Below are positions 11,791 to 22,501 of a DNA stretch of 25,565 nt, piece after piece. The notes below the pieces were generated by a model. That model worked only from the letters and a program-made list of their open reading frames with translations, was not told the DNA's origin and made no database searches. Position 1 is the stretch's first letter, and each line of letters begins with the position of its first letter. The stretch is taken from positions 1 through 25,565 of the IMG/VR virus record IMGVR_UViG_3300028559_000176. One strand, written 5' to 3'. Both the position numbers and the translations under genes were made by a program. The DNA is from a virus.

Positions 11791-12072
11791 ATGGCAACTA
11801 TAACAAAGGAAAAAACTTCTTCTAAAGTAGAAGAAATATTATCAAATCCCTTTAAACTGATACTTCACAATGATGATTACAATACCTTTGACTGGGTTAT
11901 AACTTGTCTTATGAAAATTTGTGATCATGAATTCGAACAGGCAAGTCAGTGTGCTCATGTAATACATTTCAAAGGAAAGTGTGATGTTAAATATGGGGAT
12001 CTTAAAACAATTTCATCAATGAAAGACAAATTATTAAGTGCTGGTCTTTCAGTAACTATTGAATCAAATTAA
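11791..12072 (+). CDS. clpS: ClpS-like adaptor of the Clp protease (N-degron recognition)
   Basis: 93 residues, the size of a bacterial ClpS. The core LILHNDDYNTFDWVI (from residue 23) contains the Asn-Asp pair (N27, D28) that binds the N-terminal residue of N-degron substrates. HVIHFKGK supplies His59, equivalent to the third pocket residue (His66 in E. coli). The C-terminal LLSAGLSVTIE matches ClpS of Bacteroidota, which suggests capture from a host. ClpS docks on the N domain of ClpA or ClpC and delivers substrates or blocks SsrA-tagged ones. A phage copy would retarget host proteolysis, for example to host regulators or to proteins freshly cut by phage proteases. It is co-directional with the HAD gene (3 nt gap); its stop overlaps that of the convergent zinc-ribbon ORF. 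Identification is firm; the phage role is inferred. Confidence 0.88.
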   Translation: MATITKEKTSSKVEEILSNPFKLILHNDDYNTFDWVITCLMKICDHEFEQASQCAHVIHFKGKCDVKYGDLKTISSMKDKLLSAGLSVTIESN

Positions 12073-13075: not shown

Positions 13076-15298
13076 TTAATTATTATTTTTAAAAGGATTA
13101 TTCCAATTATTGGATAAAACATCATTTTTATATCTATTTAAAAGTTTCTTTCTCCTTATATCTAAAACTTGTTTATAATCTATACCCTCTACATATTCTA
13201 TTCCATTCAATATATCTCTTATATATAAGGTAATTTCAGAATCTGTTAAGGATTCAAAATATTCCTCAACCATTTGTCTAAAATCATTTTTTTGAAATAT
13301 TGCACACATATCTACTATACTCATTACCGTATCATCATGTGATGAACCATCAGCAGCATATCTAACATTACCAGCAGCTGTTGTATGTTTTATAAAAGTT
13401 GTTATCTCCGAAATATTTATATCATTTGTTATAACAATTGATCTGTCCTCCATTTTGTCTTGATATTCTTTAACTAATAAATTTTTATTTTCACCAACTT
13501 TAAGTCCAATTTTTTCATCAATTGCATCAGATCGGTGTTTAAATCTAAAAAATACAGAAGATCCATAGTCATTTCTACCGTCAAACACATGAGGCATATG
13601 AGCTAATAATTCATTACCATATGTATTTATTTCTAAAACAATTTTAACATTATCTGGATTGAAATATTCAAATGTTATTAAATATAAAATCTCGGCTAAT
13701 TGTTGAACAGATACTAGATTACTTCTAAACATACCAACTTGTTCTAATTTGAAGAAATCAACTATTGATTTATATTTATGTTTTTGACGTTCAATTATTT
13801 CTTTTGTTTTAACATCTAATTTAAAGATATTAATTATAGAATAATCTTGACCTAATCCTTCTGAAACATCAACAGATATTATTATCTTATAATCTTTTCT
13901 TTTAAGTGGTAAAAAAATATCATCATCTTGTATCCATTTCATTTCTTGATATGAAAATTTTAACTTTTCAAACTCATCAAGCTTTTCACATTCATATAAT
14001 TTTTTATTTTTAGTTAAATCATCTATTAATGTTTCAGTTAATAAGCTTCTTGATGAATTTATAAATCTTAAATCATATTCTTGATTGAATGCTTCTTCAC
14101 CGCCAATATCTTTAATAGTTTCTTTTTTCCAAGTTGTTATTTCTGAAAATTCTAAAAATCTTATTCCATTAAATGATTCAGATAAAATATCCTCTTCAGA
14201 GCAATTTATTGTGTTTAATGTTGTAATTATCCATTTTTTCAATTCGTCATTATATAATAGAGAATGTTCATTTTTTGGATACTTTTCAATTAAATATTGA
14301 AGTAGTTCATCCTTATTTATTTTATATTCTTCTACTTTTTTAGGATTTAATCTAATATAAGTAGAAAATCTCTTGGGAACTTGCCACCAATATACTCTTT
14401 TTGCAATATAAGATGATTTTTCACCCTCTGGTTTTTCAGCATCTGTTAATAACTTATGAAAAAGATTAAATCCATCTGGTGTTGATGTTATAATTATTTT
14501 TGAATTCTCAATATTAGATACTGTTGGAAATACAGATTTATAAAATTTATCAGCTATATTTCCTGGTAGATATGCAAACTCATCTAAGTATAAAAAATCA
14601 GCAGCCTGCCCAATAGATGCAGTTTTAGTTGTTGCAAATCCTTTTATTCTACTTTTATTTTCAAAAACCATAAATTTTTGATTCCAGTTTATAATTCCTT
14701 GTTGTAAAAAGAAAGGTAGTTTTTGATATATCTCTCTTATTTTATCTAATACTTCAATTGCTGTATCTAATTTATTTGCTGTTACTAATACATTTTTATT
14801 ATTATTGAATAGTACATAATGTAACATCATTATTGATGAGCAGATTGTATTGTGTGATAATATACCATTTGTATATAATCTATGGTTTGGATGATATACT
14901 GTTGCATCAAACATACATGATTTAAAATTATTATCTAATTTCAAAGTCCTAACTTCTTCTAAACCAGATTCTGTCCATATTAAATCTCCAATTTTTAAAT
15001 TCTTAACAAAAACTTCATTGTAGCCTTTATCAAAAATTATATGATTATCTGCGCAAGATAAAATATAATTATCCGTTTTTAGAATATAATGTTTATAGGG
15101 TTGTGTTAAATGTATATCTGTTATTTTTTCATAACCAGTATCAGTTTTAACTTTAAACCCAGAAATATTAATAGAATTTAATATCTTTTTATTGATATCA
15201 TCTTCATCTAATGATATATTTCTATACTCAATTACTTCTATTAATTGTATTAAACCCTTGATAATTACTATTAAGAAATTTGTAAAAAATTTAAACAT
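13076..15298 (-). CDS. Terminase large subunit, C-terminal part, led by a C-intein
   Basis: 740 residues. Residues 1-150 are a C-intein (ending ILSHN). Residues 151-740 are the terminase after its Walker A lysine. FLYLDE (about 235-240) is Walker B with the catalytic Glu, IIITSTPDG (about 268-276) the coupling motif. The RNase H-like nuclease follows, with ISVDVSEG (about 474-481), VLEINTYG and SSHDDTVMS carrying the metal-binding acidic residues. This matches T4 gp17. After trans-splicing with the N-part, the joined protein would be about 702 residues and would drive DNA into the prohead and cut it. The ATG overlaps the stop of the endonuclease gene by 8 nt. It cannot function alone because the P-loop is on the other polypeptide. 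Confidence 0.92.
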   Translation of the reverse strand: MFKFFTNFLIVIIKGLIQLIEVIEYRNISLDEDDINKKILNSINISGFKVKTDTGYEKITDIHLTQPYKHYILKTDNYILSCADNHIIFDKGYNEVFVKNLKIGDLIWTESGLEEVRTLKLDNNFKSCMFDATVYHPNHRLYTNGILSHNTICSSIMMLHYVLFNNNKNVLVTANKLDTAIEVLDKIREIYQKLPFFLQQGIINWNQKFMVFENKSRIKGFATTKTASIGQAADFLYLDEFAYLPGNIADKFYKSVFPTVSNIENSKIIITSTPDGFNLFHKLLTDAEKPEGEKSSYIAKRVYWWQVPKRFSTYIRLNPKKVEEYKINKDELLQYLIEKYPKNEHSLLYNDELKKWIITTLNTINCSEEDILSESFNGIRFLEFSEITTWKKETIKDIGGEEAFNQEYDLRFINSSRSLLTETLIDDLTKNKKLYECEKLDEFEKLKFSYQEMKWIQDDDIFLPLKRKDYKIIISVDVSEGLGQDYSIINIFKLDVKTKEIIERQKHKYKSIVDFFKLEQVGMFRSNLVSVQQLAEILYLITFEYFNPDNVKIVLEINTYGNELLAHMPHVFDGRNDYGSSVFFRFKHRSDAIDEKIGLKVGENKNLLVKEYQDKMEDRSIVITNDINISEITTFIKHTTAAGNVRYAADGSSHDDTVMSIVDMCAIFQKNDFRQMVEEYFESLTDSEITLYIRDILNGIEYVEGIDYKQVLDIRRKKLLNRYKNDVLSNNWNNPFKNNN
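14849..15298 (-). other. C-intein (150 residues) of a split TerL intein
   Basis: Codes for residues 1-150 of the C-part. After a hydrophobic and basic leader helix (MFKFFTNFLIVIIKGLIQLIE) come the strands GFKVKTDTGYEKI, the block B-like YILSCADNHIIF and LKIGDLIW. The C-terminal blocks F and G follow, VYHPNHRLYTNGILSHN, with the penultimate His and terminal Asn needed for cyclisation. The first C-extein residue is Thr. Block B lies in the C-part, so this is an early, atypical split. Confidence 0.88.
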
Positions 15299-16262
15299 TT
15301 TTCAATTGTTTTGTTTTCAATATAAAGTTTACCATTTTTAAAACAATCAACTCTTTATTATTTATATATTCTTTTTCACTTATATGTATTACTTTATAAC
15401 CAGAACATAATATATTTTGGTCTCTTTTTCTCTCTCTTTCCCTATTCTCTGGATTGTCTCTATGATAATATGTCCCATCAAATTCTAAAATTAATTTCAA
15501 ATCAGGTATAAAAAAATCAGGAAGTATATACGAATTATTTAACTTTAGCCTAAACTCATAATTTCTATTTGTATCATGTATTTGGTTATTATCATCTAAC
15601 CTAGCAAAATAAACTTTATTATCAAAACCTAATTTAACCAACTCGTTATATGTTGATATAAACATCTCCTGACTTATAACACTATAATTAACTTTTTTAT
15701 AATTACTAAGCCATTTCTCTTGTCTATCTAACCATCTACTATAACCAATTTCTTTACCAAGTTTCTCAATACACTTATCTAACGTGAATGTTCTTTGTCT
15801 CTCTTTCAATAGACTTTTAGATTCTTCAATTGAATATCCTTTATTGATATAATATTCCAACGTAGTAGGATGAACTCTCTCTTTAATAGCTTCTTTAGCG
15901 AATTCACTTATATACTCCTCAACATTATCTACATCCTTATACTTTATAAATTCTTTTGAAAATGGACTTCTTGATTTCCTCTCTAATTCAGTTGTTTTAG
16001 ATTTATGGTTAGGATTTTTCTCACCCTTTACTTTCTCAGAAAACATTTTTTTATATTTTTCTTGCTTCATATGTTTTCCAGAGTTTTTAGTAGTATTTTT
16101 AATATCAGATAGAGCCATTATAGGTGCACCAGGAAATAATTTCTTATAATCATCAGTGGTCATATTGTTATGTTTATATTTTAAGTGTTTACCATATATT
16201 CTCTTACATTGTTCACCACATATTCTACATGTAACCGTTTCTATATTATCATCTATTTTCAT
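15291..16262 (-). CDS. Free-standing homing endonuclease, EDxHD/Vsr-like, between the terminase halves
   Basis: 323 residues. The N terminus has a C2H2-type finger (CRICG...HLKYKH) followed by FPGAP, as in MucR-like fingers. GEKNPNHKSK is a NUMOD3-like DNA-binding motif. The C-terminal nuclease core is YILPDFFIPDLKLILEFDGTYYH, then RKRDQN and GYKVIHI, giving Glu260, Asp262, His267 and Asp281 of the EDxHD family related to Vsr and I-Bth0305I. Endonucleases of this type sit between split-intein halves in 'fractured gene' loci described from metagenomes. It should cut intein-less terminase genes and copy the whole locus. It has its own AT box 16-28 nt upstream and overlaps the C-part start by 8 nt, allowing translational coupling. 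Confidence 0.85.
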   Translation of the reverse strand: MKIDDNIETVTCRICGEQCKRIYGKHLKYKHNNMTTDDYKKLFPGAPIMALSDIKNTTKNSGKHMKQEKYKKMFSEKVKGEKNPNHKSKTTELERKSRSPFSKEFIKYKDVDNVEEYISEFAKEAIKERVHPTTLEYYINKGYSIEESKSLLKERQRTFTLDKCIEKLGKEIGYSRWLDRQEKWLSNYKKVNYSVISQEMFISTYNELVKLGFDNKVYFARLDDNNQIHDTNRNYEFRLKLNNSYILPDFFIPDLKLILEFDGTYYHRDNPENRERERKRDQNILCSGYKVIHISEKEYINNKELIVLKMVNFILKTKQLKNV

Positions 16263-16277
16263 AAAAAATATTTTTTA

Positions 16278-16290
16278 TTTATATATTAAA
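16278..16290 (-). promoter_or_regulatory. TTTAATATATAAA promoter-like box before the endonuclease
   Basis: Minus-strand TTTAATATATAAATAAAAAA, about 16-28 nt upstream of the ATG at 16262, in the 31-nt gap after the N-part. It would let the endonuclease and the C-part be made independently of the N-part. Confidence 0.5.
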
Positions 16291-16293
16291 AAA

Positions 16294-16818
16294 TCACGGC
16301 TTCTTATCAAATTGGTAAGCGGTTTCTAACTTATATAAATAATCATATAATTTAATCTTTAACTTTTCTAAAAAGGTTAACTTTCTTTCTTTAGAAATCA
16401 TTAAATAATAAAGCTTTCCAAATCTAATATCATATTGTATTCCATCTCGCTCTATTGAAATTATGGTATTAAAAGAAAAACATTTTCCGACCTGCCTACT
16501 CGCCATTAATATATTAAATCTATTATTAAAAAAATTATCTAGTATTTCGTTTTGATAGTCCCTAAGTGGAATTATAATTGGTTGTCCTTCTTCTCCTTTG
16601 ATATAACAATATGTTCTTGCGAAATAGTGAATATCTAAAGCACATTTTATATATTCTTCCTGTTCATCATTTGACATTTTAAATGTTAATCCTGATGTTT
16701 TTAACCCTACTACTTTTTCAAAAAATGGATTTTCTAGTCTAGTTAAAACAAAACCATTATTTATTTTTTCGGTAGCTTCTTCTACCATTTTTGTTGTCCA
16801 AATTATCTGCCTTGACAT
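16294..16818 (-). CDS. Terminase large subunit, N-terminal part, followed by an N-intein
   Basis: 174 residues. Residues 1-112 are the N-terminal terminase segment: IPLRDYQNEILDNFFNNRFNILMASRQVGK is the adenine-binding and Walker A region of T4 gp17-type ATPases, ending exactly at the P-loop lysine. Residues 113-174 begin with Cys (CFSFNTIISIERDG), the N-intein block A. The missing P-loop Thr is the first C-extein residue of the gene about 1.2 kb downstream. The 62-residue N-intein ends in a Lys/Leu-rich helix (SKERKLTFLEKLKIKLYDY), probably used to find the C-part. Not a frameshift: the halves are separated by a whole gene. Divergent from the possible small terminase. Confidence 0.92.
   Translation of the reverse strand: MSRQIIWTTKMVEEATEKINNGFVLTRLENPFFEKVVGLKTSGLTFKMSNDEQEEYIKCALDIHYFARTYCYIKGEEGQPIIIPLRDYQNEILDNFFNNRFNILMASRQVGKCFSFNTIISIERDGIQYDIRFGKLYYLMISKERKLTFLEKLKIKLYDYLYKLETAYQFDKKP
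16297..16482 (-). other. N-intein (62 residues) of a split TerL intein
   Basis: Codes for residues 113-174 of the N-part. It opens with the nucleophile Cys and CFSFNTIISIERDGIQYDI (block A) and stops before block B. The rest is a basic amphipathic helix. The nearest known case I recall is the atypically split AceL-TerL intein, which also has a short N-intein in a terminase. Confidence 0.86.
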
Positions 16819-21349: not shown

Positions 21350-22501
21350 ATGTTACAGTATATAAAACATATAAATGAGGAATTAAATCTTACTAAGATG
21401 TCAGATGAAGATTTTGATAAATTATTAATTAAAATAAATAATAATTTAGATCAGTATAAATATTCAATATTGGATAATATTCACTATAATCTTAAAACTA
21501 ATAAAGTAGAATATAAAAATTTTAATAATATTAATATAGATCAAATAATTTCACAATTAAATTCAGACTTAGGAAGAGATATTGTAGAACAATTTAATAT
21601 TGAATCTTTTTTAAGAAAAATTAACCAAATTTTAGATTTAAAAAAAAGAAATACTAGGAAAAAAATTAAAGAAGAATTTATAAATTATTACTCATCTTTA
21701 AAAAACAGATTTGAAGATGAATTACAAGATACTAAAGTAGAAGATTATTTTGATAAAATAGAAGGAGAACATTCTATAATAACTCGTAGAAAATATGAAG
21801 ATGAAAAGTATGATATTCAAGTTGAGCTTATGAAACTACAAGAATGGGTTATACAAACAAATCAAAGAATTGCCATTGTATTTGAAGGAAGAGATTCAGC
21901 AGGTAAAGGTTCGACTATTAAAAGATTTATTGAATATTTAAACCCTAAACACTTTAGGGTGGTTGCTCTTGGTTTACCAACACAAGAAGAAAGTAATAAT
22001 TGGTTTGATAGATATGAAAAACATTTACCAAATCCTGGAGAAATTGTTTTCTTTGATAGATCTTGGTATAATAGAGGAGTTGTTGAACCAGCAATGGGTT
22101 ATTGTACTGAAGATCAATATGTCGATTTTATTGAAAAAACTGGAAATTGGGAAGAGTCATTAATAAGAAAAGGATTAATTTTAATTAAATTTTGGTTTTC
22201 TATAACAAAGGAGAAACAACAATTAAGATTCGAATTAAGAAAACAATCACCTCTTAAATATTGGAAATTTTCACCAAATGATGCTAAAGTTGTTGACAAA
22301 TGGGATATAATTACTAAATATAAAAATCAGATGTTTAATAAAACATCTACAAGATTATCACCTTGGGTTATAATAAATTCTAATGATAAAAAAATAGGAA
22401 GATTAAATGCAATGAGATATGTTTTAGATAAAATAAACTATGATAACAAAGATGAAACAAAATGTCATTGGTATCCAGAAGTAGTAAATATTTTAAAATA
22501 A
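21350..22501 (+). CDS. ppk2: Polyphosphate kinase 2 with a novel N-terminal extension and capsid-targeting-like leader
   Basis: 383 residues. Residues about 150-383 are a complete PPK2: IAIVFEGRDSAGKGSTIKRF (Walker A, 180-187), VVALGLPTQEE, EIVFFDRSWYNR (Walker B, 231-242) and the lid region RKQSPLKYWKFSPND (297-311), closing with SPWVIINSNDKK. PPK2 transfers phosphate between polyphosphate and nucleotides; the motifs look like class I (polyP plus NDP to NTP), though class cannot be fixed by eye. About 150 extra residues precede the kinase: MLQYIKHINEEL fits the shared leader and the rest is helical. The gene follows the WYL-like gene and is closed by a terminator. Likely role: feeding or rebalancing NTPs from host polyphosphate, or depleting stress polyphosphate. 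Enzyme identity is firm; role inferred. Confidence 0.92.
   Translation: MLQYIKHINEELNLTKMSDEDFDKLLIKINNNLDQYKYSILDNIHYNLKTNKVEYKNFNNINIDQIISQLNSDLGRDIVEQFNIESFLRKINQILDLKKRNTRKKIKEEFINYYSSLKNRFEDELQDTKVEDYFDKIEGEHSIITRRKYEDEKYDIQVELMKLQEWVIQTNQRIAIVFEGRDSAGKGSTIKRFIEYLNPKHFRVVALGLPTQEESNNWFDRYEKHLPNPGEIVFFDRSWYNRGVVEPAMGYCTEDQYVDFIEKTGNWEESLIRKGLILIKFWFSITKEKQQLRFELRKQSPLKYWKFSPNDAKVVDKWDIITKYKNQMFNKTSTRLSPWVIINSNDKKIGRLNAMRYVLDKINYDNKDETKCHWYPEVVNILK

Follow-up and report, generated by a model that had tools for sequence, protein, structure and literature searches.

Two genes for the terminase large subunit of a huge phage, probably joined by an atypically split intein, with a homing endonuclease gene between the halves

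We analyzed a 25.6 kb fragment of a phage genome (positions 1 to 25,565 of IMG/VR record IMGVR_UViG_3300028559_000176; hereafter, the window), in which the terminase large subunit (TerL) is encoded by two open reading frames (ORFs) separated by a putative homing endonuclease gene (Table 1). Both flanks matched the terminase large subunit (PHROG 5989, 6.5e-16 and 8.9e-17; PHROG 2, 3.5e-25; Pfam Terminase_6N, 9.7e-11). Relatives were compared in a set of 198 loci with 92 unique C-inteins, in which L-numbers are locus labels, and the N-extein could be aligned to the uninterrupted TerL of L003, L004, L007 and others. The junctions RQVGK/C and HN/T (a slash marks the junction) divide the ORFs into 112 + 62 and 150 + 590 residues, and the break falls between the Lys and Thr of the TerL Walker A motif (RQVGK/T). 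Each ORF thus carries one intein half, and a separate endonuclease gene lies between them, the arrangement of a fractured gene. An initial annotation of the window had described these two genes with the endonuclease between them on the same strand, and the ORFs and junctions agreed with it to the residue. The same order of N-intein, endonuclease and C-intein was found in dozens of independent phage contigs, always at the same codon; therefore, the arrangement is not due to chance. We concluded that this huge phage very probably makes its TerL from two genes, joined by an atypically split class-1-like intein with a homing endonuclease between the halves. A split intein and a trans-spliced TerL, as the initial annotation had proposed, are a well supported reading: the sequence, the fold modeled for an unsplit homologue and comparative genomics all point that way.

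Table 1. Features of the divided TerL locus, with positions in the window.
Feature	Position	Strand	Content or basis
TerL N-part ORF	16294-16818	-	112-residue N-extein + 62-residue N-intein
TerL N-extein, 112 residues, ending ...MASRQVGK (Walker A)	16483..16818	-	PHROG 5989, 6.5e-16
N-intein, 62 residues from Cys1 (codon 16480-16482), plus stop	16294..16482	-	Homologues; same codon in split relatives
N-intein residues 35-53, first half of the long helix interrupted by the break	16324..16380	-	L111 model and alignments
Homing endonuclease gene, 323 residues	15291..16262	-	Pfam, PHROG, PDB profile and fold matches
8 bases shared by the endonuclease gene (its end) and the C-part ORF (its start)	15291..15298	-	ORF coordinates
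TerL C-part ORF	13076-15298	-	150-residue C-intein + 590-residue C-extein
C-intein, 150 residues, ending ...YTNGILSHN	14849..15298	-	PDB sequence matches; HINT fold of unsplit homologue
C-intein residues 4-26, second half of the long helix	15221..15289	-	Alignment and L111 model
Block B (CADNH), in the C-part	15041..15055	-	Invariant A-D-x-H in C-intein alignment
His-Asn, C-terminal splice residues	14849..14854	-	Sequence alignments
TerL C-extein, 590 residues from Thr+1, plus stop; remaining ATPase and nuclease domain	13076..14848	-	Terminase_6N, PHROG 2

Cys1, block B (A-D-x-H; ADNH in the window), the terminal His-Asn (SHN) and Thr+1 were conserved among relatives, and judged by these residues the intein is of the class-1-like HINT type. 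With block B in the C-part, this counts as an atypical split, which the location in TerL and the short N-part (62 versus 150 residues) also fit. The C-intein matched VidaL (6vgv, 1.5e-6), the consensus atypical intein Cat (6dsl, 2.7e-5) and gp41-1 (0.008) among PDB sequences. Modeling of the unsplit homologue L111 gave a HINT domain with a mean predicted local distance difference test score (pLDDT) of 92.6, and its best fold match was VidaL (E 1.3e-8), with gp41-1 at 3e-7. There were 62 PDB matches at E<=0.001, and those listed were inteins and related HINT (BIL) domains. The check for a HINT fold that the initial annotation had proposed for the two intein parts was therefore positive for a homologue modeled in their place. 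The L111 model contained one continuous long helix (residues 37-68) after a shorter first helix. When split forms are aligned to it, their break maps inside this helix, and their N- and C-inteins each retain a helix-like stretch there; the extra helix flanking the break probably aids association of the halves. An earlier reading, a hairpin made of the two helical stretches, was rejected because the helix is single and continuous in L111. The ratio of nonsynonymous to synonymous substitution rates (dN/dS) of the N-intein was 0.25, indicating purifying selection.

The endonuclease matched DUF559 (Pfam, 4e-6) and a PHROG named homing endonuclease (3e-9). Its top PDB match was I-Bth0305I (3r3p), both by profile (E 0.016) and by fold (probability 1.00, E 0.015, TMt 0.67-0.69), and residues D249, E260, G263 and H267 were invariant across 23 homologues. 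These matches and residues place the C-terminal domain with the EDxHD/Vsr-like enzymes, a well supported assignment that the initial annotation had also made. Direct reading of the N-terminus revealed a zinc-finger-like CxxC...H...H motif. The gene is under purifying selection (dN/dS 0.11 versus L134), and its 8-base overlap with the C-part possibly reflects translational coupling. When 84,980 bacterial and archaeal genomes were searched for relatives, none of the 47 pattern matches was confirmed; thus, the family was seen only in phage contigs. Between L014 and L015 the endonuclease is 89-97% identical in its 5' half and 57-71% in its 3' (catalytic) half, which looks like a nuclease domain swap, and in the endonuclease alignment one N-terminal type is joined to two catalytic-domain types.

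The site occurred in four states among the relatives: empty, unsplit, split with the endonuclease, and split without it. An intein-less TerL, which the initial annotation had suggested seeking in related genomes, was found even among the window's nearest TerLs; in the nearest empty-site phages the codons are uninterrupted, and 74-78 of 90 flanking bases are identical to the window. An unsplit (cis) intein was present in five unique relatives (L111, L118, L125, L240, L260). L257, a split form that carries the endonuclease, has exteins 97% identical in DNA to those of the unsplit L260; therefore, the switch of state was recent, with its direction unsettled. The C-intein tree was poorly resolved because it has few columns, and it carries no claim on the order of cis and split forms. 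Seven of the endonuclease-less loci that we read contained apparent 3' endonuclease remnants, long and clear in L012 and present as a short KCxxFL-like tail in L002, L119, L100, L220, L208 and L113; L060, read in the same way, had no clear remnant. The remnant in L012 indicates that the endonuclease was once present there and then deleted, and the other six loci probably have the same history. In L057, L059 and L075 a different endonuclease-like gene of 574-576 residues lies on the opposite strand in the endonuclease's place; its product contains KWGVD repeats as well as a FEFNGLYWH-like motif and represents a second endonuclease-like family at the site.

The two halves of TerL can also lie well apart. 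Several opposite-strand genes separate them in L034, and the distance is ~12.4 kb in LR756501 and 67 kb in the record of L105, whereas in the record of L114 the halves are on opposite strands, 22-24 kb apart. The parts are nonetheless intact in all four. Read-through or a shared transcript is implausible for the last three, and excluded where the strands differ, which leaves protein trans-splicing as the ordinary explanation. Further inteins were seen in some of these proteins. L015, L034 and L040 have a second, full-length LAGLIDADG-type intein (~350 residues) at the DD/C site of the TerL nuclease, near residue 650 of the C-part, so that L015 and L034 have two inteins in one protein. In the cultured Salicola phage SCTP-2 (MF360958, 440 kb; loci L264, L271, L272), TerL is apparently in three pieces: gp534 (429356-429748, -), gp267 (256428-257321, +) and gp224 (215993-218077, -). 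Two split inteins apparently join these pieces, and a further unsplit intein-like insert lies inside gp224. The N-part of L129 has in-frame TGA stops at Trp positions of its relatives, which suggests that this genome is recoded.

Comparisons of DNA identity revealed that the inteins have moved. On a TerL tree that included 20 distinct empty-site TerLs, empty versus occupied sites required 11 changes (gains or losses), and every one of the rows closest to the window (L004, L007, L045, L013, L003) was empty. Between the window and L134, identity was 95.2% in the N-intein and 95.7% in the endonuclease but fell to 68.8% for the C-intein and 66-69% for the exteins; the high-identity tract has sharp borders, running from GK/C to the C-intein start, and leaves the C-intein outside. 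This pattern supports a recent transfer of the N-intein and endonuclease. Likewise, L010 and L059 are 99.4% identical in the N-intein, against 72.9% in the C-intein and 84-86% in the exteins. Conversely, L014 and L015 have exteins 97.6-99.6% identical, with N-inteins at 53% and C-inteins at 66%, and L012/L063 and L096/L135 similarly combine closely similar exteins with different inteins. Because near-identical exteins carry unlike inteins, and a shared N-intein goes with unlike C-inteins, we concluded that inteins are replaced in place and that the halves reassort. Such natural half-mosaics are plausible as working pairs, since the N-parts of GOS-TerL and AceL-TerL are reported to be interchangeable (PMC11766414). 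A bolder extension, which we offer tentatively and with rather less than even confidence, is that the halves are freely reassorting modules, with a cassette of N-intein and endonuclease landing beside existing C-inteins (as in window/L134, and for the N-intein in L059/L010). Loss of the endonuclease would then leave the packaging gene fractured and its parts free to scatter, making the motor dependent on trans-splicing between distant, separately expressed genes.

The proposed mechanism is as follows. Each TerL piece would bear one half of the intein; the halves would associate, form the HINT domain and excise themselves, and ligation of K112 to Thr+1 would restore GKT in the Walker A motif, as the packaging ATPase requires it to be whole. 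DNA packing by either half alone would not be expected. The endonuclease likely cuts alleles at the TerL site, and repair would copy in the endonuclease plus some or all of the intein. After deletion of the endonuclease, TerL would still be fractured and still functional, and the halves may then move away from each other or have other genes come between them.

Several points weigh against this account. The fold model is that of L111, 52% identical over the C-intein, and not of the window's two halves; the match to I-Bth0305I ranks first, yet its E-value is weak (0.015). We infer splicing, helix-mediated association, and the activity and target of the endonuclease. The window is also a fragment, and a second terminase could lie elsewhere in its genome, as LR756501 illustrates with a further TerL-like ORF of 394 residues.

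The alternative that survives best, though we consider it unlikely, is that the halves splice while the endonuclease no longer homes, being a decayed or inherited passenger that is transferred by ordinary phage recombination. Its loss or reduction to 3' scars in several relatives would fit, phage genes recombine in any case, and target cutting is a prediction only. On the other hand, the window's copy is full-length and constrained at the dN/dS given above, the ~95% tract starts at the intein border, and the sporadic presence requires those 11 gains or losses. The initial annotation had called the locus an active homing unit; recent mobility is borne out by the tract shared with a distant TerL and by the sporadic presence among close TerLs, and cutting stays at the level of prediction.

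Two further alternatives are each very improbable. In the first, the parts would form a non-covalent two-subunit enzyme without splicing, which would agree with halves that persist after endonuclease loss and when scattered. However, the P-loop is broken between K and T, so that an unspliced N-part has a 62-residue tail directly after the ATP-binding lysine; moreover, the intein has kept every catalytic residue, and the relatives include unsplit inteins. In the second, which we rate just as low, the divided gene would be a pseudogene and the real TerL would lie elsewhere. In its favor are the incompleteness of the window genome and the TerL-like ORFs in other phages: besides that in LR756501, there are TerL-like matches beside the C-part in LR756500, and the record of L099 has a further TerL-like ORF of 256 residues. 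Against it, both exteins are strongly constrained (dN/dS 0.025-0.1 versus empty relatives), and six long records of relatives (L002, L134, L034, L057, L105, L114) yielded the two halves only, with no extra TerL found; the L034 C-half matched in two pieces because of its second intein. Thus the second intact terminase that the initial annotation had named as a refutation was absent from these six contigs, and a TerL-like second ORF was seen in two distant uncultured huge phages. Removal of the insert as RNA, by a group I/II intron carrying a homing gene, has precedent in the spliced TerL transcript of phage ICP1 (PMC10448857), but it is already contradicted and has next to no probability: an Rfam search of the window at gathering thresholds found no group I/II intron and no other RNA family, conserved HINT residues are encoded by the inserts in the reading frames of the two exteins, and the halves lie on opposite strands in a related record.

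Genes fractured in this way, with a split intein and a free-standing homing endonuclease, were reportedly described by Dassa et al. in 2009. The same arrangement is described in PMC7891396 and PMC6892783, and like the window those systems have a host gene in two ORFs, split intein halves and an endonuclease gene between. The lineage of the window differs in its TerL Walker A site and in an atypical split with an added helix, and it adds a series of forms that are empty, cis, scarred, dispersed or mosaic. The inteins AceL-TerL and GOS-TerL share the phage TerL location, the short N-part and the long C-part; however, these are mini-inteins of ~130-150 residues in total, with IntN/IntC of 25/104 and 37/115 residues and Cys+1 (PMC11766414), whereas the window's intein has 212 residues (62/150), Thr+1 and, in its homologue, the long helix. 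VidaL and Cat, which lead the sequence matches and rank high among the fold matches, are ~18-30% identical in the fold alignment and much shorter (~145 residues or less), leaving no room for the long helix.

The TerL inteins of Ackermannviridae (Vi01, CBA120, VAP7, SKML-39) are likewise HINT inserts, located at Walker A GK/T where read (VAP7, SKML-39, P01), with C-halves 33-44% identical. Unlike the window, they occur in a single ORF without an endonuclease inside the insert, and the match is confined to C-intein residues 48-150 and lacks the long helix. Unsplit TerL mini-inteins were seen in L261, L262, L263 and ~300 phage records, including cultured Ackermannviridae, Campylobacter and Delftia phages; they lie at the Walker A site where read and are mostly annotated simply as terminase. 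I-Bth0305I shares the EDxHD/Vsr-like catalytic domain with the window's endonuclease but is a mobile-intron protein, whereas the latter has the zinc-finger-like N-terminal region and a position between intein halves.

The fractured-gene arrangement, the HINT fold, the class 1 residues and the atypical split were therefore known. As far as databases and the literature show (few subscription papers were within the literature searched), four things appear new: this TerL lineage split at Walker A and bearing a helix around its break, the graded states that include scars of deletion, halves lying far apart, and natural mosaics. They provide a natural series of stages in the invasion and fracture of an essential gene, whose function protein trans-splicing apparently maintains, and some of the events are recent enough to be read in the DNA. 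They also point to many split-intein halves, matched and mismatched in nature and with the additional helix where they part, which would be useful for protein ligation tools. In addition, TerL is a standard marker in phage taxonomy, and in huge phages it is often in two (even three) pieces that are easily missed.

The initial annotation had assigned the window to a phage of Bacteroidota, which we cannot tell: the genomes nearest to it come from uncultured huge phages for which no host is known, and the closest TerL matches with an annotated host included Tenacibaculum phages (~33-37% identity), alongside cyanophages and others. Elsewhere in the window we found a phage-borne polyphosphate kinase 2 (PPK2, 6e-78; 21350-22501) and a phage-borne ClpS adaptor (4e-17; 11791-12072), and an ORF similar to the latter follows TerL in L015.

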